From contig SLNJ01000019.1 in NCBI GenBank assembly GCA_007133065.1, positions 1 through 64,000 of the forward strand: a stretch of 64,000 nucleotides of DNA, read 5' to 3'. Made by a program: the position numbers and the translations under genes. This DNA comes from Opitutales bacterium. GTDB lineage: Bacteria; Verrucomicrobiota; Verrucomicrobiia; Opitutales; Oceanipulchritudinaceae. Positions 1 to 14,192 of this stretch are shown here, in pieces. How positions within the stretch are numbered: the first letter of the stretch is position 1; each line of letters opens with the position of its first letter. The notes below the pieces were generated by a model. The model had not been told where the DNA came from. It was given only the letters and a program-made list of their open reading frames with translations, and searched no databases.

Positions 1-24
1 GGCCGGTTTCGCCGCCCAAAAAAC

Positions 25-58
25 CGGACAGGTTTGGGTTCGCACCCCATGTCCGCCC
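25..58. other. tRNA-like T-arm hairpin at window edge
   Basis: A cggaca/tgtccg stem (25-30 with 50-55) encloses a ggg/ccc stem (36-38 with 46-48) around a seven-base TTCGCAC loop. The loop resembles a T-loop followed by an acceptor strand, so this could be the 3' end of a tRNA or tmRNA gene that begins outside the window. No encoded CCA is present and the T-stem has a mismatch, so the call is weak. It lies about 50 bases from the truncated end of the helicase gene, where an integration site would be expected. Confidence 0.2.
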
Positions 59-104
59 CGGAATCCCTAAATCATTGATAACACGCGACAATCAGGAGAG
101 CGTG

Positions 105-2993
105 TCAGGAGATCTGAACTTGGCTCTCCCAGTGAAGCCGGGTCCTGCTGATGGGGTAATCTTTGTAGCGGGTGGTGGGCGAGAAATCCTTCTCTTCCTT
201 CCGGAAGGTGACGAAGTGGAGGTAGGCTTTCATGTCCTTAAGGTGGACTACTCCCGTTCCCGTAGGGCCTGTTGTCTCAAGGTTCGCTTTTCCGAAGGCA
301 GCGGTGATTTCCCGAAAACCATACGTAGCGTGAAGGCGGAGCGGACAGGGCATTCCGATATCGATCGCCCGCGTGGGAAATGGATGCTGGCTCAGGCGCC
401 AGTTTGCGATTTCAATAAAATCGGCGGCGGCCGAGTGGTTCTGTTGCCAACGCCTGAAAGACTCTTCGTGCGTGGAAACGCCCAGTGCTTCTCCTCTTTG
501 CGACCAGAATAGATAGTGAAGGGCGTTTGCTTCTTCTTCGGAGAGGCCATAGTCGGCTGGATCCTCGGCGACAGCCTCGGAGGAAACACGAATTGCTTTT
601 TTCAGAAACTCGGGGTCGGTGCGGAGCACCAGGCGACGAAGGGCTCTGCGAGCATCGGCGAGGTGCGGGTCCTGAACGGTTTCCGTTCCATGGGCGAGGT
701 CCTTCCATTCCGACCAGGTTCGATTGCTCAAGATTTCCAGCGGTGATAGCTGGGTATCGTGAATGAAGTTGCCAAATGTCAGCTCCTTTTTCGTCTCAGC
801 TTCGAAGGTCTGAATCGCTTCCGGGATAAATGTTCTAAGGTTCCCCAAGCTTTGACGGATATTGGCAAGAACATGCTCGCGCGCAACTCGTTCCAGGTGA
901 AGATTGCAGCCTGGAGGCAAGTTAGGGAAGTCTCGCTCGATTTCTTGGTCGATCCGGCGGCGCGTTGTTCGGAGTAAAGCGCTGAACTTCCGGTCGATGC
1001 GATACTTTGGGTGAGCCTGGCCAACGAAATCCAGCACCGTCAGACACTCCTTGCCGGGCGCGTGGCGCAGACCGCGTCCGAGTTGCTGAAGAAAGACGGT
1101 GAGGCTTTCCGTGGGTCGCAGAAAGAGAACGAGATTGATTTCCGGAATGTCCACGCCTTCGCTGAAAACGTCGACGGTAAACAGAAACGTTATCTTTCCG
1201 TCGCGAAAGTCTCGTATCCGTCTTGTTCGGACATGACGTGGCGTCGTCCCCAGAACCACTTCCGAAGTTTGTCCAGTGAGCCTGAAATTTTCCGCCATGT
1301 ATTCAGCATGCCGAACACCGGCGCAGAAACCAACAGCACGGGTGTTGCTCAGGTCCGGCTGGTAACGTTCGATGCTGTTCCATATAGCGTCAAGTCGCAG
1401 TTTCGCCCGCACATCGTCGCCGCTGTAAACCTCCTCGAGGGCGTTTGCATCATACTTGCCGTTCTTCCAGAACCGTTCGTCGGCAACAGACACCGGATCA
1501 GTAACGCCGAAGTAGTGGAACGGGCAGAGAAGCTTTTCCTCCAGCGCTTCTGGTAAGCGTATTTCGGCGGAGAATTCGTTATCGAAATCCGGCAGAATCG
1601 AACTGCCGTCCATCCGCTCTGGAGTAGCGGTCAACCCGAGCAGGATTTTAGGTCTCAGGTGCTCGAAGAGAGGCCGATAACTACTGGCGGCGCCATGGTG
1701 TGCTTCGTCGACGATGGCAAAATCGAAATGCGTCGGACCGTATCGCTCCCACGGGGTTCGGCTATTCAGGCTTTGCACCGAGGCGAAGACGTGCTCCCAA
1801 CGATCAGGTTCCTGTCCATCGACGAGCATTTCGCCAAAGTTAAAGTCCCGTAGTACCGCCCTGAAGCAGTCGCGTGCCTGTTGAAGGATTTCCTTTCGGT
1901 GAACGACAAAAAGCAGTCGGGACGCCTGCCGATTCTCACCGCGGAAGCGGGCATAGTCGAACGCTGCCATCACCGTCTTCCCAGTCCCGGTGGCAGCGAC
2001 CACGAGATTACGGTTCGATCCAGCCATTCGAGCAGCGAGCAAGCTTTCAAGAATTCGCTCCTGAAAGGCGTGCGGCTTGATGTCTGCAAAAAAGTGCGGA
2101 CTTTCCGCAGGCGTGGACTGCTTCGCATAGGCAATCGCCTCGCGGAACCGGTGCGCGTGTGCACCGTCAAACGGCACGAACTCCTCCCGTGCCCAATAGG
2201 TCTCAAATTCCGCCGTGAAGCGGGCAAGGATATGCGGCATGTCCTGAGCGGTAACCTTGACCGTCCACTCCAAACCACTCGTCATCGCTGGGCGGCTCAT
2301 GTTAGCTGAGCCGATGTACGCCGTGGAATATCCACTTTTGCGAATGAAGTGGTAGGCCTTGGCGTGCAGCCGGGTTCGTTCGGTATCGTATGACACCCGG
2401 ACCGAGAAGCACGGTTGAGCGGCCAGCCACTCGACGGCATGTGGATCGGAAGCTCCCATGTAGGAGGTCGTGATGATTCTTACCTCGACTCCTCGGTCAG
2501 CCAAAAACTCAAAGGCGGGCAACAACAGCTTGAGCCCGGACCATTTGATAAAGGAAACGAGGATGTCGACCCGGTCAGCCGTCATCATCTCAGTTCGGAG
2601 CTCCCGCTCGAGTTGGGGATCGTCGGCAGAGCCGGTCAGAAGGCTGCTCACACTCAGCGGAGTTGCCGGTTCGGGATATGTATTCGGCTGGTCCGGTGAG
2701 TTTATTTGCCGTAGAATGGTCTTCGGTTTCTCAAGGAGACGTTTTCGCTGTGTATAATCGAGACCGTCGATGCTGCTAAGCAACTCAATCAGACGGTTCA
2801 TAATGGAGCGGCGTTGGTCTGCTTTTACGATCGGCAAGGCCTTAAGGAGCACTTGTCCCAGGAACTGACTAAACGCCTGTGGGGCGCTTTCGTCATCCAG
2901 CTTCTCAAAGATCGGCGACAGCTCCGGATGAGCCGAGAGCATTTCCTCTAAATCCTCATCGAGCAATCGATCGTATAAACCCTCAGGAAGCAT
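105..2993 (-). CDS. PLD-domain superfamily II helicase, DUF3427-like, C-terminally shortened
   Basis: Predicted DNA helicase/nuclease of 962 residues. Residues about 120-270 form a phospholipase-D-like nuclease domain with a single HxK half-motif (HAK 210-212) and GSANMS at 228-233. The helicase core follows: Walker A ATGTGKT at 334-340, DEAH box at 429-432, TATP at 455-458, and motif VI QQLGRGLR at 636-643. The C-terminal region resembles DUF3427 but stops just after LHWESQ, where I remember family members continuing for roughly 90 more residues, so the 3' end appears lost. It is the last gene of a minus-strand operon, 24 bases after the Nudix gene. PLD-helicase-DUF3427 proteins are often neighbours of MutT-like hydrolases, which supports a role in DNA repair or phage defence. 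Helicase assignment is firm; the biological role is inferred. Confidence 0.9.
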   Translation of the reverse strand: MLPEGLYDRLLDEDLEEMLSAHPELSPIFEKLDDESAPQAFSQFLGQVLLKALPIVKADQRRSIMNRLIELLSSIDGLDYTQRKRLLEKPKTILRQINSPDQPNTYPEPATPLSVSSLLTGSADDPQLERELRTEMMTADRVDILVSFIKWSGLKLLLPAFEFLADRGVEVRIITTSYMGASDPHAVEWLAAQPCFSVRVSYDTERTRLHAKAYHFIRKSGYSTAYIGSANMSRPAMTSGLEWTVKVTAQDMPHILARFTAEFETYWAREEFVPFDGAHAHRFREAIAYAKQSTPAESPHFFADIKPHAFQERILESLLAARMAGSNRNLVVAATGTGKTVMAAFDYARFRGENRQASRLLFVVHRKEILQQARDCFRAVLRDFNFGEMLVDGQEPDRWEHVFASVQSLNSRTPWERYGPTHFDFAIVDEAHHGAASSYRPLFEHLRPKILLGLTATPERMDGSSILPDFDNEFSAEIRLPEALEEKLLCPFHYFGVTDPVSVADERFWKNGKYDANALEEVYSGDDVRAKLRLDAIWNSIERYQPDLSNTRAVGFCAGVRHAEYMAENFRLTGQTSEVVLGTTPRHVRTRRIRDFRDGKITFLFTVDVFSEGVDIPEINLVLFLRPTESLTVFLQQLGRGLRHAPGKECLTVLDFVGQAHPKYRIDRKFSALLRTTRRRIDQEIERDFPNLPPGCNLHLERVAREHVLANIRQSLGNLRTFIPEAIQTFEAETKKELTFGNFIHDTQLSPLEILSNRTWSEWKDLAHGTETVQDPHLADARRALRRLVLRTDPEFLKKAIRVSSEAVAEDPADYGLSEEEANALHYLFWSQRGEALGVSTHEESFRRWQQNHSAAADFIEIANWRLSQHPFPTRAIDIGMPCPLRLHATYGFREITAAFGKANLETTGPTGTGVVHLKDMKAYLHFVTFRKEEKDFSPTTRYKDYPISRTRLHWESQVQIS

Positions 2994-3017
2994 AGAAACA
3001 GAAAGCGCCGTGTAAGC

Positions 3018-3449
3018 TCATTGCGGGTACGCTGAAAACCTGATACCCAGGCTCTTCTGTTGCAAGAGCGAAAGCAGCTCGGCGAGAATGGGTAGATCCG
3101 CGGGAGCCCATTCAAGGGAGGCTGCAACGCTCGCATTCACCCACCGGGCCGCGGAGTGTTCGACGAGGTGCAGGCTCGGTCGGGCGTCACAGCGCCCCAG
3201 AAACGGAATCAACCGAATGGAGCCGAAATCGTATCGATGGGTAACCGGAGTGAGAGGGAGAAGAGAATCAACGCAAAGATGCAGCTCTTCCCGCAACTCG
3301 CGTCGCAAGGCTTCCTCGGGAGATTCGTTGCCCTTGACCTTCCCGCCGGGAAATTCCCAGAGGTCGCCGAGGGGTTTGTCGGGGGGACGCTTTGTCGCGA
3401 GAAAGGTGTCTTGTGAATCGACCAGGATTAGGCAGGAAACTGTGATCAT
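3018..3449 (-). CDS. Nudix hydrolase, MutT-like (deoxy)nucleoside triphosphate pyrophosphohydrolase
   Basis: A 143-residue single-domain Nudix protein. The Nudix box occupies residues about 35-58 (GGKVKGNESPEEALRRE, then REELHL) with the metal-binding REXXEE glutamates present. WEFPGGK just before the box is typical of MutT-type 8-oxo-dGTP sanitising enzymes. It lies 18 bases downstream of the methyltransferase-HNH-S24 gene and 24 bases upstream of the helicase gene, so the three are very likely co-transcribed. In this context it may cleanse or deplete modified nucleotides during DNA damage or infection. Substrate is not determinable from sequence. Confidence 0.9.
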   Translation of the reverse strand: MITVSCLILVDSQDTFLATKRPPDKPLGDLWEFPGGKVKGNESPEEALRRELREELHLCVDSLLPLTPVTHRYDFGSIRLIPFLGRCDARPSLHLVEHSAARWVNASVAASLEWAPADLPILAELLSLLQQKSLGIRFSAYPQ

Positions 3450-3467
3450 CAGGGAAGGGGTCGTGAT

Positions 3468-5137
3468 TTATGGGACCCTCCCCACCATCGTCCCCAGGAT
3501 CGGGTGGGCAATCTCATTTTTCGGGATGCGGACGGGTGGGTAGGCTTTGTTGTCCGACTTGAAGATCCAGTGGGTGGCGTCCTGGGTGAGGCGTTTGATG
3601 GCTTCGGTGCCTTCGGTGGCGGGGCCGAATTCGGGGAGATTGGCGCTGACGATTTCTCCGTCGTGGCGTGGGGAGCGGTGGTATTCGAAAACGACGAGGT
3701 CGCCCTGGGCGAGGGTCGGAGACATTGAGTCGCCGGCGACGCGGACGACGAAGCGGTTGGGCCGGGCGAGGCTGGGCGGGACCTCCACCCAGTCGAGATC
3801 TTCGGCGTCTGCGAGGTCGCCGGTCTGGAATCCGTGAAAGAAGGGCCCGGCTGCGAGCGAGCCGGCGAGCGGGAGGTGGTCGCTCTTCTTTGCGTTCACC
3901 TTCGGATCGACGGGAAAGAGGTTCCAGAGCTCGTTGTTGCGCCAGAGGGCGAATGGCATGGCGTGGTCGACGTCGAAGGCGCGGTCAAGGGACCGCTCCG
4001 TCCAGACGCAGACCCGGGAGGAGAGTGTGGCGAAGTGGCGCTTGGCGTCGGCTACATTGCGTTCCGCGTCGGGGACCTGCAGGAGACAGTCGATCACTTC
4101 GCTGGCCCGAATGCCGTCGTTAATCTGTTCGGTCAACTCGGCCCATCGCAGGAGGGTGGCGTCGTGGATCCAGTTTCCAGTGAGACAGTGCTCCCTCCAT
4201 AACGGAGCCGGCATGGCGATCGCCTTTGACTCGCGATCGTATGCGAAAACGTCGTACTCGCCACCGCCTGCGTGACGGACCGGCATGGTCCAAATCGTTT
4301 GTTTGAATTTGGCCAGGGCCTTGCGAAACAGCTGGTCGATCTCCGGGCTGAAGCGGCCGCTCTTCCAATCGACGTAGAAGGCGGAAAGCCCGCCTACCTG
4401 CGCGTATTTCCGGATGAGTGCGTCGAGCGGGGGTCGGATGGCGACGTCGGTCCTGCTCGTCCCCTGCCGAATGGTTCGTTCAGACGCGAAGATTGGCCAG
4501 TAGTAGACGATCCACCGCTCCGCGACAGCGCTGACCGGGACCTGTACCGTGTCGTCATGGGTGAAGGTGGCGACGTGGTGTTGGGTCTGGGCGATCTCAG
4601 CCAGGGCACGGAACAGGGCCAGCTTGTACGTGGCGACCTTCCTGTCCCGGTTGAGGATGCCCTCGAACAGGTTCAGGGGGCGGTCGATGGATTCGTCGAG
4701 GCGGGTGAAGACCATCCAGTTCCAGGTGAATCCGTTTCTGCGCTGGGAGTCGGTGGAGGTTCTTTCGTTTTTGACGGCGAAGCCGACGCGTTCGAAGAGG
4801 AGTTTCAGTTTGGCGGCGGGCAGGTCGGTGAAGAGGCGTCCATCGGTGTCGCGGCGGGTGGCGGGGTCGATTCCGGGACGGTCTCTTGGGACGGAGATGG
4901 CGAGTGTTCCGCCGGGGGATAGGATCCGGCGAAGGCTGTACACGGCGTCGAAGATCGACTCCTCGGGCAGGTGCATGAGGACCGCGGAGCAGAGGGCGCC
5001 GTCGAAGGAAGCATCCGGGAACCGGCTGAGGTCCGGCAGAGAGCCGTGGAAGAGGCGGCCTTCTGGGTTCGGCCCCGCATCTTCAAAGAGGGCCCTGGCC
5101 TGGGCCAGCATCTCCGGTGAGGCGTCGATGCCGTGGC
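3468..5137 (-). CDS. methyltransferase (N-truncated)-HNH nuclease-S24 peptidase fusion
   Basis: Three recognisable parts. At about 5137-4790 is a class I SAM methyltransferase fragment starting at HGIDASPEM; the glycine-rich motif I that should precede it is missing. At about 3970-3880 is an HNH-like motif (DHAMPFALWRNNELWNLFP, then NAKKSD). At 3860-3468 is a LexA/UmuD-like S24 domain with catalytic Ser in GDSM (codon near 3728), Lys in EAIKRL about 44 residues later, and an Ala-Gly pair (near 3846-3851) where autocleavage would be expected. The middle section (about 4000-4780) is unassigned. The frame stays open to an ATG at 5504, but codons beyond about 5137 are antisense to an FAD-oxidoreductase tail, so the original 5' end is gone. 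First gene of the operon with the Nudix and helicase genes. A DNA-damage-triggered self-cleaving nuclease/methylase is an inference. Confidence 0.72.
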
Positions 5138-5483
5138 AAGCTGCGGGTTCGAGATCGACGTGCACGATCCCGTCAAGGGCGGCACGAAAGATGATTTGAG
5201 CCTGGTTCGTATTAAACCTTATGAGATCCCGTATCGTTCGCTGCTTCCCGAAAACCTGCGCGGTCTGCTGGTGGCCGGGCGATGCATTTCGGGGAGTCAT
5301 GAGGCGCATGCTTCCTACCGGGTGACGGGCACGGCCATGGCGCTGGGGCAGGCGGGGGGCATAGCCGGGGCGTGGGCGGTGCGCGACGGGGTTGAGTTGG
5401 ACGCCGTGGACGGTCGAAAGCTGCGGGCCGTGCTGAAAGAGCGCGGCGCCGGGTTTGCAGAGGATATTCGCGTGACGCATTAG
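5133..5483 (+). pseudogene. C-terminal fragment of an FAD-dependent oxidoreductase
   Basis: The frame encodes the tail of a family of FAD-dependent oxidoreductases (PF12831 type) common in PVC and soil bacteria: FEIDVHDP, YEIPYRSLLPENLRGLLVAG, RCISGSHEA and TGTAMALGQAGG are all characteristic. About 115 residues remain of a protein usually several hundred long, so the N-terminal FAD-binding part is missing. The break point (about 5130-5140) coincides with the 5' truncation of the oppositely oriented methyltransferase gene. The GTG at 5133 is only the first start in the fragment. Family assignment rests on motif recall and is fairly firm; the fragment is not expected to be functional. Confidence 0.75.
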
Positions 5484-5856
5484 TAGGAAGGCGTGGGGGG
5501 ACACCTTTCGAGCCGGTCATTTTCCTGCGAACGACCGCATGTTCGGGGTACTGGCGGATCCGGGGGTCCGGGGGCAGTCTGTTCAATCCAGGGTGCGTTC
5601 GGCCGTGGGACAGGGGAAAATCAGGGCACCTCGCGCATTTCGAGCTCGGGCAGTCATGGCGAGGCGTCTTGGTCTTGAGGAGGCCAAAATTATGGGTGCC
5701 CTGGAATACCACGCTCGTGGTGGGCATTCTGCCGACCCATGCCATTCGCGATCTCATGCGCCTGCCCGACGGCGAACTACGCCATTACGGTTTCCGGGGC
5801 ATCGTTGGCAAGCGTCTGTACTTGCCGTCCGAAAAGCGGACTTTTATCAATTGAAA
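5484..5856 (+). other. non-coding or decayed spacer
   Basis: This 373-base stretch between the oxidoreductase fragment and the dipeptidase gene holds no gene I recognise. Open frames exist in several phases but none has a known motif. The VanX frame is open upstream to 5539, but that extension does not resemble the family. Confidence 0.4.
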
Positions 5857-6516
5857 ATGTGGAATAAGGCCGATACGGAGTACTGGATTCAAAAGGAAAG
5901 AGAGATTGCAGAGATTGTAGTCAATCTCGAGGATTACGGATTCGCCGTTCATTCTCGCAGCTATGCTCTGGGATGGACGGATGATCCGAAATTGTACGGA
6001 AGGATCGACGCGGTCAAAGCGCTGCTCAGAGCCAGGGAGGCTCTGCCGGATGGATTGAATATAAAGGTCTTTGACGGTTGGAGACCCTGGGAACTGCAGG
6101 AACAAGCTGCAAAGCGAGCAAAAGAGAGGATCGCGGCTGCCCATCCCGAATGGACCGATGAGCAGGTTGATGAGCATCAGTGGAGAATGGCTCCGCCTGC
6201 GCGTATTGTTCCCAGGTTTGGTTCGCACCGATATGGAGGGGCGTTTGATATCACCCTTGTCGATGCTGAGGGTGAAGAGGTTGATATGGGAGTTGGTGTT
6301 GGGTACAACACAGGCCCGGAAGCAGCGCTTTTCTATTATCAGTTTCTCGAGAATCCAAACGAAAGGGAGCTGACTGCCAGGGAAAACCGGAAGATTATGA
6401 TTAACGCAATGTGCTCTGCCGAATTCAGCCCGTATTTGGAGGAATTCTGGCATTGGAATTATCTGCGCGATTTCGAGAAGGCTGCGAAGCAGTGGATGAT
6501 GAATCATGGCTCATGA
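5857..6516 (+). CDS. D-alanyl-D-alanine dipeptidase, VanX-like (M15 family)
   Basis: About 219 residues. The M15D zinc motifs are present: SHRYGGAFD (SxHxxxxxxD) and EEFWHWNY (ExxWH), together with the VDMGVGVGYN region that shapes the active site. The enzyme would hydrolyse D-Ala-D-Ala, either for peptidoglycan dipeptide recycling or, in other organisms, glycopeptide resistance. No vanH/vanA-like genes are nearby, so a housekeeping or catabolic role is more likely. I chose ATG 5857 because homology begins at MWNKADTEYW; TTG 5851 is possible and the frame is open to 5539. It is flanked on both sides by gene fragments yet appears intact. Confidence 0.82.
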   Translation: MWNKADTEYWIQKEREIAEIVVNLEDYGFAVHSRSYALGWTDDPKLYGRIDAVKALLRAREALPDGLNIKVFDGWRPWELQEQAAKRAKERIAAAHPEWTDEQVDEHQWRMAPPARIVPRFGSHRYGGAFDITLVDAEGEEVDMGVGVGYNTGPEAALFYYQFLENPNERELTARENRKIMINAMCSAEFSPYLEEFWHWNYLRDFEKAAKQWMMNHGS

Positions 6517-6672
6517 GAAGTGGAGTAAGAGACGAAAATCATCATCACGCGGAAAGTCCGGATTTCGCGCCGCTGCTGTGGAGCAAACCTTATGCGCCGG
6601 CTCGAGCAGAAGGACTCTCAGCCGCGCATACTCTCCCATTACTGATCAAACCAATCCCAGAAGGAGAAATCC

Positions 6673-6865
6673 ATGACACGCTATATTGCCGCCTACGATA
6701 CCGAAACCCCCAAATGCCCGGCCGCGTGCGAGAAAATCGTTCGCGTGCATCGTGAGTTTGAGATGCCGGCGACGTTCTATGTCGTTGGACGCCATTTGCG
6801 TGATCACGCCGATCACTACCGCAGGCTGTTGAATGATCCACTGTTCGAGACGCGGGCATCGAGCT
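6673..6865 (+). pseudogene. N-terminal fragment of a polysaccharide deacetylase-like protein
   Basis: An AGGAG Shine-Dalgarno (about 6660-6664) precedes ATG 6673. The first 55 or so residues (MTRYIAAYDTETP, then EFEMPATFYVVGRHL) match the start of NodB-type polysaccharide deacetylases, where a ligand-binding Asp follows the first strand and 'PATFFVVG' is common. After LLNDPLFE the frame loses any resemblance and ends at 7005. The catalytic His motif and the rest of the domain are absent. The next recognisable sequence, in a different frame, belongs to a sugar isomerase tail. Confidence 0.55.
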
Positions 6866-7024
6866 CTGGTGGCCGAGGATGGTTTCCAGGAATTGACGGC
6901 CGCCGCGAAACAACACGGCTTGGCCAAGGCCGACTATGCCGGTTACGTTGGACACGAGTTCAGGCCCAAAGAGGATTTGCTTGCCGGCCTGCAGTCGGCT
7001 TTTGAAGTTTGCAGGGGTGATTGA
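6866..7024 (+). pseudogene. C-terminal fragment of a hydroxypyruvate isomerase-like TIM-barrel protein
   Basis: In frame 2, about 50 residues ending at 7024 (DYAGYVGHEFRPKEDLLAGL, then ESAFEVC-like tail) resemble the end of hydroxypyruvate isomerase/AP-endonuclease-2 family proteins, where 'GYVGHEYxPxxDP' with a metal-binding Glu is typical. No N-terminal part exists; the fragment abuts a deacetylase head in another frame. This reads as a deletion fusion of two unrelated genes. Confidence 0.5.
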
Positions 7025-7179
7025 GGCTTACATCCCGCCCACCCCGCAGCGGATTCGGAGCAATTCCGGCGGCGTTTCGCGTTGCTTATTTCCGGCCGAT
7101 AGGGTACGGCATAGCGACACCTGCGTACCGGGCCGTGCCGGTCTATCAGTCTCCGGTCGGGGTGCTGGTGAGCCAAACC

Positions 7180-7935
7180 ATGCGATCCATGAAATGTCAT
7201 GTAACCTGCCTGTTTCTGATCCTTGCTGTGCACACGCTCCTGGAGCCAGCGTTCGCGCGTCTGGAAGCGCAATCCCTTTCGCCGTGGGCGGATCTGGGCA
7301 ACGGCTGGCGATCGACCTGGATGGGTCCGGTCTATACGGAGTTTGATCCGTGGGTCTACCACGCGGAACATGGCTGGATGTATCTCCATGGCGCAGCGGA
7401 TTCGCTCGCCTCGATCTTCAGTCCGGTAGTCGGCGCGACGCGATCCTGGGTTTGGGGGAAACATGGCCAGGGCGACAATTTCTCAGTGATCGTTGACAAC
7501 ATGATGAACCTCGAACTGCTCCTCTGGTCGGCGCGCAATGATCCCGAAATACGGGCGGAGTATGAGACGATGGCGATCACGCACGCCGACACGACCATTC
7601 GTGATTTCATCCGTCCCGATGGAGGGACATGGCACGTGATCATCTACAACCGCAACGACGGATCGATCCTCTCCCGTGAGACCCACCAGGGGTACAGCAA
7701 CTCCTCGACATGGTCCTCCAGCCCGTGGCGGGTCAGGGCTGAGAATAGGGACGGGATCGGCGCTTGCGATCACACTGGACCGGTCAGAGCGTTGATTCCC
7801 GGACATAATTTCCTCAACCTCCTCAACGATCGTTCCTCGGTCGGCTGTTCGAGCCGCCCAGGCGCGACGGCCGGTCGACCGTCGTCCCGGTGCGCATGCC
7901 ATCTGTGTACCGCGGACCGTGTAGAAATCGGTTGA
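7180..7935 (+). pseudogene. chimeric fragment: secreted Trp-rich domain joined to a GH88 piece
   Basis: ATG 7180 begins a signal peptide (hydrophobic CLFLILAVHTLLEPAFA). Next comes a tryptophan-rich domain with WMGPVYTEF, DPWVYHAEHGWMY and SWVWG, of a kind usually found at the C-termini of secreted Opitutales proteins. At about 7460 it switches to an internal piece of a GH88 unsaturated glucuronyl hydrolase: SVIVDNMMNLELLLW (containing the catalytic-type Asp), ITHADTTIRDFIRPDGGTWH and QGYSNSSTW. Beyond about 7710 the GH88 resemblance stops, where intact enzymes have 'SAWARGQAWG'. The frame runs on to 7935 without recognisable sequence. Family matches are good but the composite gene is unlikely to make an active hydrolase. 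Confidence 0.6.
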
Positions 7936-8125
7936 CCCCGGACCAAACCGGGCGATTATCGGACAGTGTAAACTCGTGCCCCGACCGTTCGTTCCACAGA
8001 ACAACCCTGATGCTGGGAACGCCCCAGGTTTGCCAACCGGACCGGCGAAGGCGCTCCGAAGCAATCGCAACCCCGTCAAAATGATCGCCGTACCCATGGT
8101 AGTATTCTCCGAACTCGCATCTCCC
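7936..8125. other. spacer with no recognised gene
   Basis: Nothing recognisable lies between the end of the GH88 chimera frame and the start of the sugar-dehydrogenase-like gene. Together with the unassigned tail from about 7720, this makes roughly 400 bases of apparently decayed sequence. Confidence 0.4.
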
Positions 8126-9808
8126 ATGCGCCGTTGCACGCGGCGCGCCGCCACGTATTTCGCTCCGCTGATGGCCCTGCTGCTCCTCGCCGCCCCCGCC
8201 CCGGCGAACGACGAGCCCCTCGATCGCCCGTTGCCGACGATGCCGACCGCGAACCGACATGTCGCCGTCGAGGAGTGGCAACAATTCCCCTCGACGAGAG
8301 ACCTCGGCAACAGCTGTTGCGGTGCGGCGCGTCTGAGCATGCTCAAAGCCCGGCCCGGTGCCGCCGACGAACTCTGGGTTAACGACCTGCGCGGGCCGCT
8401 GTACCGCGTCGTGGACGGGGTGCGGCACGACTATTTCAGCCTTTTCGACGAGCGGGAGGACTTCATCCATCAACCGGGCCTGGGGACGGGTTTCCAGGCA
8501 TTCGCGATCCATCCGGAGTTCAATGAGAATGGCAAATTCTACACCACGCACAACGAAGCCCTCGTCGCCGGGCAGCCGGCTCCGGATTTCCCGATTCCCG
8601 ACGGAACCGAACCGATGATGATCGGCGTGGTGACCGAGTGGACCGCCGACGACCCGGACGCGATGAGTTTCTCCGGTGCCTCCCGCGAGCTGATGCGCAT
8701 CGAGATGCTCGCCCAGATGCACGGATTGCAGGAGATCGCCTTCAACCTGCACGCGGTCCCCGGCGACGCCGATTACGGGAACCTGTATATCTGTCTCGGC
8801 GACACGAGCGCGTTCCACCGGGAGCGTCCCGATCTGCTGCAGCGCCTGGACTTTATCTACGGTACGATCATGCGCATCGACCCGATGGGCACGGACGGGG
8901 AGAACGGCCAGTACGGGATCCCCGCCGACAACCCGTGGGTCGACGACGCCGATTCGGACACGCGGCCGGAGATCTTCGCACTCGGATTCCGCAACCCGCA
9001 CCGCCTCGCCTTCGAGCCGACCCGTCCGGACGGATCGCCCGGCAGGATTTTCGTAACCAATATCGGTGAAGAGAATATCGAGGACGTCAGCTCGCTGCGG
9101 CCGGGCGAGAATTACGGATGGCCCCACCGCGAGGGGACGTTCAAGGTGATCGCCGACGACATCTCGCGCCGCGACTACATCTATCCTCTTCCGGAAAATG
9201 ACGAGGAATACGGTTTTACGTATCCTGTAATTCAATACATTCGGGACCCGGATGACGATCCGTTCGGGGGCAACCGCGCGCGCGCGGTCGGTTCGGGGAT
9301 ATTCTACGATGGGCGGGAGTTGCCGTACTTTCGCGATCACTTCATCATGAACGATATTCCTGGGGGGCAGCTGCTCTTCGTTCCGCTCGATGCGGCCGAT
9401 GAGGACGATCCGGCGATCCCGAGCCGCTTCATCGTGCGCACCGCGGTTTCCGGGGATGCGCGCAATCCCGGCGTCACCACCTTCCACGAAATGTATAACG
9501 GGTCGCGCGTCGATATGCGGATGGGAACGGACGCGGACGGCGAAATCTACCTCCTCGCGAAAAATGACGGCCGGGCGTTCCGCGTGCGTGCCGACCCCGT
9601 CCACCCGTGGCGCAACTACACCGTCACCCGGACCGGCTGGGTCGAAACCGAACACCTCGGACGGGTTTTCATTGAGTCGTCACCCTGGGTCTACGTCGAA
9701 AAACTCGGAAACTGGGCGTTCTGGCCGATTGATGAACTCCCCGTCGACGAAGCGTCCGGCGCCTGGACCTGGGTCTCCAATCCAAACCCCGGGAGCGGGG
9801 CTGAGTAA
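8126..9808 (+). CDS. secreted glucose/sorbosone dehydrogenase-like beta-propeller protein
   Basis: About 560 residues. ATG 8126 gives a clear signal peptide (MRRCTRRAATYFAPLMAL, then LLLAAPAPA); the frame is open upstream to 7976 but the extension is not hydrophobic. Motifs fit the PQQ-dependent soluble dehydrogenase/GSDH propeller: FQAFAIHPEFNENGKFY, ALGFRNPHRLAFEP, NIGEENIEDVSSLRPGENYG and AVGSGIFYDG. The last 60 residues form a Trp/aromatic domain (GWVETEHLGRVF, SPWVYVEKLG, GAWTWVSNP) related to that in the upstream chimera. A periplasmic or secreted sugar-oxidising or binding role is likely; cofactor use is not certain because members of this fold are divergent. Stand-alone gene. Confidence 0.82.
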   Translation: MRRCTRRAATYFAPLMALLLLAAPAPANDEPLDRPLPTMPTANRHVAVEEWQQFPSTRDLGNSCCGAARLSMLKARPGAADELWVNDLRGPLYRVVDGVRHDYFSLFDEREDFIHQPGLGTGFQAFAIHPEFNENGKFYTTHNEALVAGQPAPDFPIPDGTEPMMIGVVTEWTADDPDAMSFSGASRELMRIEMLAQMHGLQEIAFNLHAVPGDADYGNLYICLGDTSAFHRERPDLLQRLDFIYGTIMRIDPMGTDGENGQYGIPADNPWVDDADSDTRPEIFALGFRNPHRLAFEPTRPDGSPGRIFVTNIGEENIEDVSSLRPGENYGWPHREGTFKVIADDISRRDYIYPLPENDEEYGFTYPVIQYIRDPDDDPFGGNRARAVGSGIFYDGRELPYFRDHFIMNDIPGGQLLFVPLDAADEDDPAIPSRFIVRTAVSGDARNPGVTTFHEMYNGSRVDMRMGTDADGEIYLLAKNDGRAFRVRADPVHPWRNYTVTRTGWVETEHLGRVFIESSPWVYVEKLGNWAFWPIDELPVDEASGAWTWVSNPNPGSGAE

Positions 9809-9901
9809 TCCACGCTTCTGTTTTGTCGGACGGAGTGAGACCGAACGCGGCTTTGCCGGGTTCGATTCAAGGACATCGGTAACAGGAGCCTGATCTTTGG
9901 T

Positions 9902-9930
9902 TTGATTCTTGTGCGCCACGTCTTCATAAA
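9902..9930 (+). promoter_or_regulatory. possible sigma-70-type promoter for the oxidoreductase gene
   Basis: TTGATT at 9902-9907 and CATAAA at 9925-9930 are separated by 17 bases, upstream of the gene starting at 9977. Each hexamer matches consensus at four positions. Confidence 0.3.
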
Positions 9931-9976
9931 CGGTGTCAGCCAATCGCGGCTGAACGAATGAACAGAGGAACAAATT

Positions 9977-10888
9977 ATGAATGATGAGGTTCGGATCGCC
10001 ATGATCGGGCTGGACACCAGCCACTCAATTGAATTTCCCCGCCGGATGAACGCGCCGGACTGCCGGGAAGACCTGAAAGTCGACGGTCTTACTGTGGTCA
10101 GTTGCCTTCGCTTCCCGTCCCCGTTCCAGAATGCCGAGGGGCTCGATCAACGACAGAAGCAGTTGGAGGAATGGGGAATTCCGGTGACTCTGGACTTCGA
10201 TGCGGCGGTGGCAGATTGCGATGCCATCATGTTGGAGATCAATGACCCTTGCCAGCACCTGCCTTACTTCGAACGGTGTGCAGGGCTGGGCAAGCCGCTG
10301 TTTTTGGACAAGCCTCCGGCTGAGAGCGCCGCAAGTTTCGAGAGGATCTGTGACCTGGCCGCCCAACAGGAGACCCGTTTCTTTACATCCTCGGGGATGC
10401 GCTTCGTGCCCCAGCTTCTGGACGCCTGCGCCAAGGTGGAGGAACCGGAAAGCGTGTCGGTATTCGGCGCACTCGGCGGCGGACCGGAAGGCACCACCCT
10501 GGGTCAAATCATCGTCTGGTACGGGATCCATACTTTTGAAATCCTGAATCGAGCGATGGGCAGGGGGGCGGAGAGCGTGTTCGTCAAACCCGACCGCGGC
10601 GGTGCCGTCGCAACGGTTCAGTACCCGGGCAGTCGTCGCGGAGTGGTCGAACTGTCCGACCGGAAGTGGCTCTACGGCGGCTGGCTGCGCGATTCCAAGA
10701 ATGCCGTTTCTTTCTCGATCGACATACCTTACATGGTACACAATTCCGTTACGGACCAGTTGAAGCGAATCAAAGCTTTCTTCCAGGGTGGGGAGGCGCC
10801 GGTGGCGCTTGAAGACTCACAGGAGATCATGCGCATGCTCGACGCCGCGGCACGATCCGCAAAATCCGGACAAGTCGAACCGGTGTAG
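9977..10888 (+). CDS. Gfo/Idh/MocA family oxidoreductase
   Basis: 303 residues, cytoplasmic NAD(P)-dependent dehydrogenase family acting on sugars or inositols. The N-terminal Rossmann strand is VRIAMIGLDTSHS. FLDKPPAES corresponds to the family's 'EKP' lysine motif, which lies near the nicotinamide. ATG 9977 is preceded by AGAGG at 9964-9968, a rare clear Shine-Dalgarno in this window. The gene is monocistronic by spacing. The C-terminal catalytic domain is shorter than in glucose-fructose oxidoreductases. Specific substrate cannot be assigned. Confidence 0.85.
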   Translation: MNDEVRIAMIGLDTSHSIEFPRRMNAPDCREDLKVDGLTVVSCLRFPSPFQNAEGLDQRQKQLEEWGIPVTLDFDAAVADCDAIMLEINDPCQHLPYFERCAGLGKPLFLDKPPAESAASFERICDLAAQQETRFFTSSGMRFVPQLLDACAKVEEPESVSVFGALGGGPEGTTLGQIIVWYGIHTFEILNRAMGRGAESVFVKPDRGGAVATVQYPGSRRGVVELSDRKWLYGGWLRDSKNAVSFSIDIPYMVHNSVTDQLKRIKAFFQGGEAPVALEDSQEIMRMLDAAARSAKSGQVEPV

Positions 10889-11249
10889 GATTCAGATCGC
10901 TGATCGTAAAACGCCCTGTCCGGGTCTTTGCTTGGCGTCCTTTGCGGTTTCAGAAGCTGTTGGCAGGGAAAGAATCCAACCGCTGATGAACACGGATGGA
11001 AATGCGGGGTTGCTTGAGACCGAGGCCGAGCCTCAACAGGTCGTTGGTGCGGTAATGGAATTGATTTATGTGCCTGCGGCTTTGCGCTCCACCGATATCC
11101 CGCGTCGGGTGGCCGACGCTTTGTTCACCAACCTACGCGTCCCAATCCATCACTCGACCCAACCCCCTCCGCGTCATCCGTTCATCAAGCCCCGGCGGGC
11201 CTGCATTTCGAGCTAGCCAATGGAGGGGTCCGGCGTATAGACGAGTCCA
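10889..11249. other. 361-base spacer with possible repeat-associated remnant
   Basis: The spacer contains AACCGCTGATGAACACGGAT at about 10978-10997, a string I associate with dispersed intergenic repeats in planctomycetes and verrucomicrobia. It is followed by a short open stretch (LLETEAEPQQVVGAVMEL) faintly like the start of GxxExxY proteins that often accompany such repeats. No intact gene is present. Confidence 0.3.
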
Positions 11250-12023
11250 ATGCACGAGACATCCCCCTCCACCGAACCGATTCGAAGTGTTGTAATCACC
11301 GGCGCAGCCGGATTCCTCGGGAGAGCGATGGTCTCTGTGCTGAGTGCGGCGTTCGACGATGTGCGCGCGCTCGACGTCGTCCCCGTCGAGGGTGTGGCGG
11401 ATGCGCGGGTCGGAGATGTTTCCGATCCGGGGGTGGCGGCCGACGCCTGCCGGGATCGCGATGCCCTTGTGATCGCCCACATGGCACCCAACCGCCCCGG
11501 CGTCTACGACGAGCCGGCGCTTCCGTTCGACGTCAACGTCAAGGGCGCCGCCCTGCTGTTCGATCAGGCGCTCCGCTGCGGCGTGCGCCGGGTTGTTCTC
11601 ATTTCGAGCATGGGGGTGGTGCGGGGTCGCGACCGCTCCGACCGCTTTCTGCACAGCGAGCATCCCATGCAGACGCGTGGCTTGTACGGCCTCACCAAAA
11701 TCTGCCAGGAGATGATCGCGGAGCACTACCACCGCAACCACGGCCTCCCGGTCGCAGTGCTCCGGCCCGCCTACATCGTTGACGCCGACTCCGGGGAGGA
11801 CAAATACGGCCGGAAGCTCAAGGAGGCGAACTGGCAGTTTACCGACCGGCGTGATATCGCCGGTGCAACCGTGGCGGCGTTGCGCAAACCCGACCTCGAA
11901 TACGGCGTCTATCCGGTGATGAGCCATCCCGCGGCGACCGAGTACACCGATATCGGCCGGACCTACCACGAGCTCGGCTGGCGGCCACAGTACATGGTGG
12001 ATGGCCCCCGCGGCGGGCGATGA
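11250..12023 (+). CDS. NAD-dependent epimerase/dehydratase (extended SDR)
   Basis: 257 residues. The nucleotide-binding motif TGAAGFLGRAM (TGxxGxxG) lies near residue 18. The YxxxK catalytic pair appears as YGLTK, and LISSMG supplies the preceding serine strand. DARVGDVSDP matches the acidic adenine-binding turn. It is shorter than most sugar-nucleotide epimerases but has the same core, so the substrate is probably a sugar or sugar nucleotide. The first gene of cluster A starts 132 bases downstream, after a hairpin, so co-transcription is uncertain. Confidence 0.85.
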   Translation: MHETSPSTEPIRSVVITGAAGFLGRAMVSVLSAAFDDVRALDVVPVEGVADARVGDVSDPGVAADACRDRDALVIAHMAPNRPGVYDEPALPFDVNVKGAALLFDQALRCGVRRVVLISSMGVVRGRDRSDRFLHSEHPMQTRGLYGLTKICQEMIAEHYHRNHGLPVAVLRPAYIVDADSGEDKYGRKLKEANWQFTDRRDIAGATVAALRKPDLEYGVYPVMSHPAATEYTDIGRTYHELGWRPQYMVDGPRGGR

Positions 12024-12041
12024 GGGTGGGGGATCGGCCGC

Positions 12042-12063
12042 GGCTCTTCCCCCGAAAAGAGCC
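12042..12063 (+). terminator. weak hairpin after the epimerase gene
   Basis: ggctctt (12042-12048) pairs perfectly with aagagcc (12057-12063) around an eight-base loop, 19 bases after the epimerase stop codon. No T-tract follows immediately, so it may only attenuate or stabilise a 3' end. Confidence 0.25.
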
Positions 12064-12155
12064 CGCCCTCATAAATCGAGGACGGGGGCCGCAAAAGATT
12101 GCGTGTGGCGCAGCGATGCTTTTTTCTCTGATACCATTACACTCCTCCCCGTCCA

Positions 12156-14192
12156 ATGGGCCTCAAGAAGCACGGATTATCATACCTTACAGCCGTTCTT
12201 ATCGGACTGATTGGATCGTGTATCGTATGGGTGGTTACCCCATACAATAATTTCGTCCTCGCGGCCGGGTTCATTTCGGACAGCTACCTGCCCGTCGCCG
12301 CGCTCTTCCTGTTTCTCGTACTCGTCCTCCTGATCAACCCGGTGCTGCGCCGGTTCACTCCACGGTTGGTGCTCTCGCGGGGCCAGTTGATCGTGATTCT
12401 CGGGATCCTCTTGGTGGCGAGCGTGCTGCCGGGGCAAGGATTGCATCGGATCCTTCCCCATGCGATCGCTTACACGAATCTCGAGGTTTCCCGCAGTCCC
12501 GAACTGGTGGCGCTGTACGAGGAGGCGGGTATCCGCCAGTGGCTCTTCCCCGCCGCTCTGGAGTACGACTACCACGCCCCCGTGGTCGAGTATTTCGTGA
12601 CGGAGCTTCCCCCGGACGAACCGATTCCCTGGATGGCATGGATATCAGGGCCGGTTCCCGCGTGGATGCTCCTGATGCTCGCCCTCTGGCTCATGATGGC
12701 CGGTCTCGCCCTGGTTGTTCTCCCGCAATGGCGCGAGAATGAGCGCCTCTCATTCCCCCTGCTCACGGTGATGGAGCCGATGGTCGATCGTCCGCAAGGC
12801 GATCGCTTGTTCCCTGAGTTGTTTTACAGCAAGATGTTCTGGATTGCGGCAGGGGTTGTCTTCGTACTCCACCTGCTGATGGGGTTGAACAGCTACTACC
12901 CGGAACGGATCCCGGCGATCCCGCTCAGCTGGAACCTTCAGAATCTCTTTGCCGACGATCCCCTGCGTTCTCTCCCCGGCCACATCCACACGAACCAGAT
13001 TTACTTCCTGTTCCTCGGCGTGGCGTTCTTTATGCCCGCGCGAATCGGGTTTTCGATCTGGTTCTTCGTGCTCGCGTACGGGGTTTACGTGATGATCGGG
13101 AACGCGTACCTGCCGATCTTCTCAACCGAAACCGTGCGCGACCATCGATGGGGCGCCATGGTGGTGCTGACGATTGCGATCATCTGGCTCGGGCGGCTCC
13201 ACTGGGCGCGCGTTGCCCGTTGCATGGTACGAGCCGCCAACGTCGCCGCCGACCGGCGGGACCGAATCGCCGGATGGACCTTCGTCGCCGGCTGCTTCGC
13301 CATTTTCCTCTGGCTGGTGATTGTCGGTCGCGTGCAGTTCTGGTGGGCGCTCTTTCTGCTCGGCTACGCCGTCTCCTGCGCGCTCCTGATCTCCCGAATC
13401 GTCGCAGAAACCGGAGTCCCGTTCCTCCGCCTCGACACCGGAGGCCAGGTTCCCTTTCTGAAGATCATCGGAACCCATCTGGCCGAGTTGAAGATGCTCT
13501 GGTTCCTCTCTCCCGCGACACTCTTCTTCTCCACCATCATTACGGTCCTCGTCGAACAGGCATCGCGCGTGAGCCCCTCCGTCATGCTCCTGCACGCGCA
13601 TGCGCTCGGGGAGAAACTCGGTCCCCGGCGACAGGGAAAACTGGCGACCACGCTCATTCTCGTGCTGTTAATCGGCTTTGTTGTCTGCGGCGCCGCACAC
13701 CTCTACTATGGGTACAATCACGGCGGCAGCCTGGACGGGTTGGAGCGTCCCCTGAGCGAATGGGGGAGCCAACGCTTCAATCCTGCAAACACGGACCTGC
13801 GCCGATACAGCGACGGACATTTCGCACTCCCTTATTTCCAGAATCCCGATCGCTGGCACCTCGGGTTCGGGCACGCCGCGTTCGGCGCCGTCCTGGCAGG
13901 CGTGCTCTATTGGCTCTGTCTCAAATCCCCGGTCTGGCCGCTGCATCCGGTCGGCATCCTGATGGCCGGTACGTTTTTCGGAAATCAGGCCTGGGTCAGT
14001 ATTTTTTTCGGCTGGCTGTTCAAGGTACTGCTGTTGCGCTATGGGGGAGCGCTCGTTTACCGATCGGTGAAACCGTTGGTACTGGGGTTGATACTCGGGG
14101 AAGTCATCGCGATCGCATTCTGGGCGATCGAACCGGTTGTCCGAATCTGGCTGGGGGATATCTATATTCCACTGGAGATCCAACCACGATGA
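12156..14192 (+). CDS. polytopic membrane protein, DUF6785/DUF6784-like (cluster A)
   Basis: 678 residues with a dozen or more hydrophobic segments and no signal peptide beyond the first membrane helix. It resembles the large membrane proteins annotated as DUF6785/DUF6784 in PVC bacteria; I name the family from memory. The motif SRIVAETGVPF near the middle is shared with the three cluster B paralogues (MRIVAETSMYWF). Other shared features are FGNQAW/W.FFGWLFK near the C-terminus and a run of segments before each periplasmic loop. Its stop overlaps the next start (ATGA at 14189-14192), so translation is likely coupled to the pseudo-M28/FtsX gene. Function unknown; a transporter or envelope-complex component is inferred from topology and neighbours. 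Confidence 0.85.
   Translation: MGLKKHGLSYLTAVLIGLIGSCIVWVVTPYNNFVLAAGFISDSYLPVAALFLFLVLVLLINPVLRRFTPRLVLSRGQLIVILGILLVASVLPGQGLHRILPHAIAYTNLEVSRSPELVALYEEAGIRQWLFPAALEYDYHAPVVEYFVTELPPDEPIPWMAWISGPVPAWMLLMLALWLMMAGLALVVLPQWRENERLSFPLLTVMEPMVDRPQGDRLFPELFYSKMFWIAAGVVFVLHLLMGLNSYYPERIPAIPLSWNLQNLFADDPLRSLPGHIHTNQIYFLFLGVAFFMPARIGFSIWFFVLAYGVYVMIGNAYLPIFSTETVRDHRWGAMVVLTIAIIWLGRLHWARVARCMVRAANVAADRRDRIAGWTFVAGCFAIFLWLVIVGRVQFWWALFLLGYAVSCALLISRIVAETGVPFLRLDTGGQVPFLKIIGTHLAELKMLWFLSPATLFFSTIITVLVEQASRVSPSVMLLHAHALGEKLGPRRQGKLATTLILVLLIGFVVCGAAHLYYGYNHGGSLDGLERPLSEWGSQRFNPANTDLRRYSDGHFALPYFQNPDRWHLGFGHAAFGAVLAGVLYWLCLKSPVWPLHPVGILMAGTFFGNQAWVSIFFGWLFKVLLLRYGGALVYRSVKPLVLGLILGEVIAIAFWAIEPVVRIWLGDIYIPLEIQPR

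Follow-up and report, generated by a model that had tools for sequence, protein, structure and literature searches.

The type IV restriction enzyme SauUSI is laid out as a PLD domain, an SF2 ATPase, and a C-terminal SRA-like target domain. Among self-cleaving proteins with an S24 domain, LexA has AA↓G as its cleavage consensus (the arrow marks the cut), and UmuD offers a precedent for activation through cleavage. How a host is protected from its own restriction after damage is understood mainly for EcoKI: ClpXP removes HsdR by way of a degron that is unknown (PMC4231737), HsdR being the type I cutting subunit and the one that E. coli loses during restriction alleviation (PMC4231737, PMC11109961). 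The N-terminal fragments of cleaved LexA and CI are ClpX targets as well (PMC10584840).

Here, we propose that a portable LexA-type tail carried by restriction enzymes acts as a self-cleaving off-switch, that is, an encoded form of restriction alleviation, a tentative reading to which we assign a probability of about 0.4. The broader proposition, that a mobile LexA-type autoprotease tail provides general damage-triggered control of type I to IV restriction enzymes and of helicase-nuclease defence in several phyla, stands in our estimate at even odds. The parts belong to known families. Joined as a tail that recurs on restriction enzymes of many kinds, they were not found in searches of the open-access literature, where no listed title or abstract concerned S24-tailed restriction enzymes, and a word search of two recent papers on helicase and BREX defence returned neither S24 nor LexA.

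The window (the whole stretch of DNA analysed, 64,000 nucleotides) covers the opening 64 kb of contig C12 in an assembly of 162 contigs. It begins with three minus-strand ORFs, the first two spanning 105-2993 and 3018-3449 and the third open over 3468-5504, with gaps of 24 and 18 bases as the initial annotation had given them. The helicase carries PLDc_2, ResIII, Helicase_C, and a weak DUF3427 domain (profile positions 124-198 of 280), and matches PADLOC mREase_IV, a type IV methyl-directed restriction enzyme (E=1.6e-182). Its PLD HxK motif is present (HAK at residue 210), as are the SF2 ATPase motifs (Walker A at residue 335, DEAH at 429). It shares the HxK motif, the ATPase motifs, part of DUF3427, and the mREase_IV match with SauUSI, but the window copy is without the target-recognition end, and relatives in Bacteroidota have an extra S24 tail. 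The Nudix protein matches the PADLOC candidate PDC-S07 (E=1.1e-35). In the third frame, Pfam identifies Methyltransf_25/11, HNH_4, and Peptidase_S24; the N-terminal LexA DNA-binding domain is absent from this fusion, and the methyltransferase (MTase) and HNH parts stand in its place. Elsewhere on the contig, at C12:141214, a 428-aa frame encodes another S24 protein, a candidate for the host LexA.

Table 1. Features of the window and of S24-tailed partner proteins at other loci (partners identified by Pfam).
Feature	Place	Coordinates	Strand	Remarks
Repeat	window	1..121	.	common to the first bases of contigs C158 and C76
SauUSI-type PLD-nuclease/SF2 helicase	window	105..2993	-	962 aa; end of DUF3427 target-recognition region lost
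Nudix hydrolase	window	3018..3449	-	143 aa; Pfam NUDIX E=1.9e-18
MTase-HNH-S24 fusion	window	3468..5138	-	5'-truncated, internally deleted; 556 codons remain
LexA-type S24 domain and cleavage-site region	window	3468..3896	-	Ser codon 3726-3728, Lys codon 3594-3596
SLAAG, predicted Ala/Gly self-cleavage site	window	3846..3860	-	Ala 3849-3851, Gly 3846-3848
HNH_4 nuclease motif DHAMPF..NNELWNL..N..KSD	window	3870..3986	-	E=2.6e-05; motif residues intact
Class I SAM methyltransferase remnant	window	4755..5138 (inner limit approximate)	-	without motif I; Methyltransf_25 profile from position 22
FAD_oxidored C-terminal fragment	window	5127..5483	+	abuts truncated fusion; breakpoint ~5127-5138; PF12831 E=1.5e-32
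HsdR, HindI type, with S24 tail	L209 (G104)	8980-13020		site AAC↓G
Type III Res with S24 tail	L210			adjoins type III methylase
Type III Res with S24 tail	L215			
Methylase-adjoining protein	L211			Pfam match S24 alone; Res-like by position only
Specificity subunit with S24 tail	L212			
MrfA-type helicase with S24 tail	L213			
AlwI REase with S24 tail	L214 (G280)	6051-10115		directly after D12 adenine methylase; read from L027
Helicase-HNH_repeat with S24 tail	L216			
HNH_2 protein with S24 tail	L013			

The initial annotation had seen in these genes a candidate damage-responsive defence or repair operon. Its three genes, with their domains and the residues expected for self-cleavage, are real, but this copy is broken, and to judge from the sequence it is a decayed one that, as it stands, would not be expected to give intact proteins. 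The fusion has no natural start: above ~5130-5138 its frame runs antisense to a plus-strand FAD_oxidored gene, of which the C-terminal quarter is present (PF12831 profile 317-416). Homologues that reach the upstream region have 60-odd further residues, including MTase motif I, that are missing in the window, and ~150 residues between the HNH and S24 parts of homologues are absent in frame, with KKSDH directly joined to LPLAGSLAAG. The helicase, in turn, ends ~80 residues early. The match to its nearest relative (G461, 82.5% DNA identity) stops at window base 121, and the target-recognition domain that is cut there continues in G461 to a normal DUF3427 end. The repeat at 1-121, whose border is the point of lost helicase homology, begins three contigs; the two other contig-start copies, on C158 and C76, are identical at the 99-100% level (one 100%, one 99%), and an 87% partial copy lies on C5 near a DDE_Tnp_1 transposase ORF. 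It probably represents the end of an IS or a repeat at which the assembly broke, and some breakpoints of the window copy could be assembly faults.

Two side observations concern the same neighbourhood. A second helicase-Nudix copy in G461 (contig C26, L166 3282-4933) is internally deleted, which suggests that the locus is decaying in this close relative too. The genome of the window also contains two truncated FAD_oxidored genes, the one in the window and L070 2136-2729 on C25; the C25 copy is contig-internal and does not complete the broken window gene, and was rejected as its missing part.

That the cluster lies at a repeat contig end, with two genes cut at one junction, would suit a chimera of a metagenome-type assembly, in which the fusion itself is artefactual. 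We regard this as improbable. Full-length MTase-HNH-S24 proteins occur in many independent assemblies, including the complete genome CP120722.1, which excludes a chance product of one assembly, and the helicase-Nudix pair is intact in G431. The family is therefore real, and any artefact would be confined to the breakpoints in the window copy.

The MTase-HNH-S24 protein is a real fusion family with intact homologues, such as the one in Kiritimatiellota B12222, a genome that also encodes an S24-tailed Schlafen-type protein. Full-length MTase-HNH relatives were found in a search of 388 genomes of the same phylum, and a named scan yielded 80 loci. S24-bearing members come from Verrucomicrobiota, Kiritimatiellota, and Lentisphaerota, S24-less relatives from Pseudomonadota, Thermodesulfobacteriota, Spirochaetota, and others, and HNH-only forms from Bacteroidota and methanogens. 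In a tree of the MTase-HNH part, the S24-bearing rows cluster together with one S24-less row, and neither S24 subtype forms a single clade. In a “Candidatus Argoarchaeum” member (L118 8998-11850) the gene is split, with ~1.2 kb between the MTase and HNH parts, perhaps an insertion.

The fused methyltransferase resembles small-molecule or RNA methyltransferases and is thus not a classical modification partner. It is of the Methyltransf_11/25 type, with no DNA-methylase family match above the cut-off. In a fold search with the full-length model, which returned methyltransferases only and is silent on the HNH part, its structural neighbours are UbiG, METTL6, and GNMT (Z 20-25). With family and fold matches both pointing elsewhere, a DNA methylase was rejected.

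The likeness of the S24 domain to LexA is borne out by sequence and predicted fold. Profile matches are to LexA and UmuD, the top Foldseek matches of the predicted window domain are LexA, CI, and UmuD, and VIA-align superimposes it on LexA, lambda CI, and UmuD with Z up to 14.8 (2.3 A over 116 residues). The P, S, M, and K residues are invariant in 55 of 55 S24 modules, the window included. The cleavage site [A/T/C]-[A/C]↓G is kept in nearly all (variants LAA↓G, IAA↓G, AAA↓G, TA↓G, and AAC↓G; SLAA↓G in the window), with rare exceptions lacking the Gly or the site (L041, L238). The Ser/Lys pair and Ala-Gly site noted initially are accordingly kept both in the window and in the intact full-length homologues. 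The cleavage loop has pLDDT <50 in the models of the S24 domain and of the full-length protein, and is presumably mobile. These modules thus share with LexA, UmuD, and CI the predicted fold, the Ser-Lys dyad, and an Ala/Cys-Gly site upstream of the catalytic Ser; they differ in having no DNA-binding head or UmuD arm, the N-terminal partner being a nuclease, restriction subunit, or helicase.

The tail is portable. A module profile (A4, threshold E <=1e-15, centre genomes included in the counts) hits 23 of 378 genomes in the phylum of the window. In the phyla around three other centre genomes, the counts are 5 of 398 (centred on a beta-proteobacterium), 8 of 198 (on a member of Bacteroidota), and 4 of 148 (on a member of Syntrophobacterales). 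Partners include type I, type III, and AlwI restriction enzymes, in which the cutting protein carries the tail, along with helicases and HNH proteins (Table 1); no hsdM or hsdS partner of the S24-tailed HsdR was identified in the stretch examined. Three of the bodies that precede the tail were compared with reference profiles and are complete, covering positions 5-1027 of 1029 for HsdR, 1-952 of 953 for the SauUSI type, and 2-564 of 570 for AlwI. Schlafen-group-3 (SLFN-g3) helicases are further partners, several with a MazG-like gene adjoining; among them is a subgroup (L240, L241, L244, L245, L246, and L247), most members of which have such a neighbour. Within it, L245 gives a weak N-terminal GIY-YIG match (E=7e-06), and the subgroup is called GIY by similarity only. 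In the S24 tree, MTase-HNH tails fall at two separate places and PLD-DUF3427 tails are nested within SLFN-GIY tails, a topology that shows movement of the module between partners. Phage records gave no match, and none was confirmed in viral contigs.

The grouping of the fusion with helicase and Nudix genes, which the initial annotation had made, holds in part. Among named loci, a helicase gene of PLD or Schlafen type is at most 3 kb away from 1 of 17 S24-bearing members, 12 of 41 S24-less MTase-HNH members, and 2 of 17 HNH-only forms; these are raw counts, taken from a set outside which the window and G318 lie. In G318 a PLD-helicase directly adjoins an S24-bearing member, and in a Spirochaetes locus (L090) PLD-helicase, Nudix, and MTase-HNH genes are consecutive. 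The helicase link is real, yet the majority of S24-bearing members are found apart from helicase and Nudix genes. Four Bacteroidota genomes (L248-L251) have the S24 tail on the PLD-ResIII-DUF3427 helicase itself, as a fusion, with domains from Pfam for L249 and L250 and assigned by similarity for L248 and L251. A Nudix or Nudix-like ORF overlaps the helicase start in these loci, and the Nudix adjoining the Bacteroidota fusion also matches PDC-S07, S24 partners being outside what that model describes. The association of S24, Nudix, and PLD-helicase thus recurs independently in Bacteroidota, here without the HNH protein, which backs the original grouping.

For intact members, we infer cleavage, RecA dependence, degradation, and an off rather than an on direction. 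In response to an activated RecA filament, or to a signal of that kind, the tail would cut its own chain at [Ala/Cys]↓Gly through the Ser-Lys dyad. The freed enzyme would then end in -LAA, -IAA, -AAA, or -AAC, resembling the end that ClpX recognises in cleaved LexA, and would face unfolding or degradation. After genome damage, the nuclease would in this way be removed and the modification subunits spared; a Nudix or MazG partner might, at a guess, clear unusual nucleotides that make host DNA a target. The proposal has in common with ClpXP alleviation of EcoKI the removal of the cutting subunit when host sites are unmodified, and differs from it in that no S24 tail has been described for EcoKI HsdR, while the cleavable tail would here create the degron (PMC4231737).

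The initial annotation had suggested the opposite direction, a nuclease held inactive until cleavage. In this reading the tail would keep the nuclease or helicase silent until damage stimulates self-cleavage, as in the conversion of UmuD to UmuD'; with RecA filaments formed through infection or damage, the freed enzyme would turn on DNA or on the cell. The conserved cleavage site and dyad count for this reading as well. Cys is the P1 residue of the UmuD cleavage site, which the Cys↓Gly of the restriction-enzyme tails matches, the position of the tail, behind an enzyme that is otherwise complete, would suit a masking domain, and most S24-bearing MTase-HNH members stand alone, as an abortive effector might. 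Relatives of these enzymes that have no tail, however, are ordinary restriction enzymes and need no damage in order to act. Restriction that waits for damage would give no protection early in infection, and would hit the host when unmodified sites are likeliest. No masking contact can be read from the full-length model, in which much of the linker and the cleavage loop have pLDDT <50. We consider activation unlikely and favor the off-switch, because type I, type III, and AlwI enzymes bear the tail on the cutting protein, because complete enzymes should not need it, and because the new C terminus would be LexA-like. In all three cases tested the restriction enzyme is complete ahead of its tail, so that removal of the nuclease explains at least as much as its activation would.

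Several points count against the off-switch. Its degron-like ending may be incidental, AA↓G being the LexA consensus in any case, and for the type I, type III, and AlwI tails the ending is -AAC or -KC. One tail is on a specificity subunit (L212), several are on helicases without a known modification partner, and a few members are without the Gly or the site. In addition, plasmid-induced alleviation of EcoKI restriction does not need the SOS response (PMC11109961).

The tail may instead be cleaved or self-interacting without reporting damage, answering to another ligand or protease partner or serving as a dimerisation or binding module. Dimerisation of LexA and CI does run through the S24 domain. 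IrvR, for one, is reported to be a LexA-like protein that works outside the RecA paradigm (PMC7101444). Dimerisation alone, though, would not need a Ser-Lys pair and an Ala/Cys-Gly site across 55 divergent modules, and we judge this reading less likely still than activation.

A conserved self-cleaving tail on HsdR, type III Res, AlwI, SauUSI-type, and Schlafen-type proteins would couple restriction to a LexA-like signal directly through protein chemistry, and many unstudied nucleases would be marked as damage-regulated. Single point mutants (Ser-to-Ala, Gly-to-Asp) make the switch idea testable, and the S24-tailed AlwI enzyme with its D12 methylase represents a compact system suited to such study.
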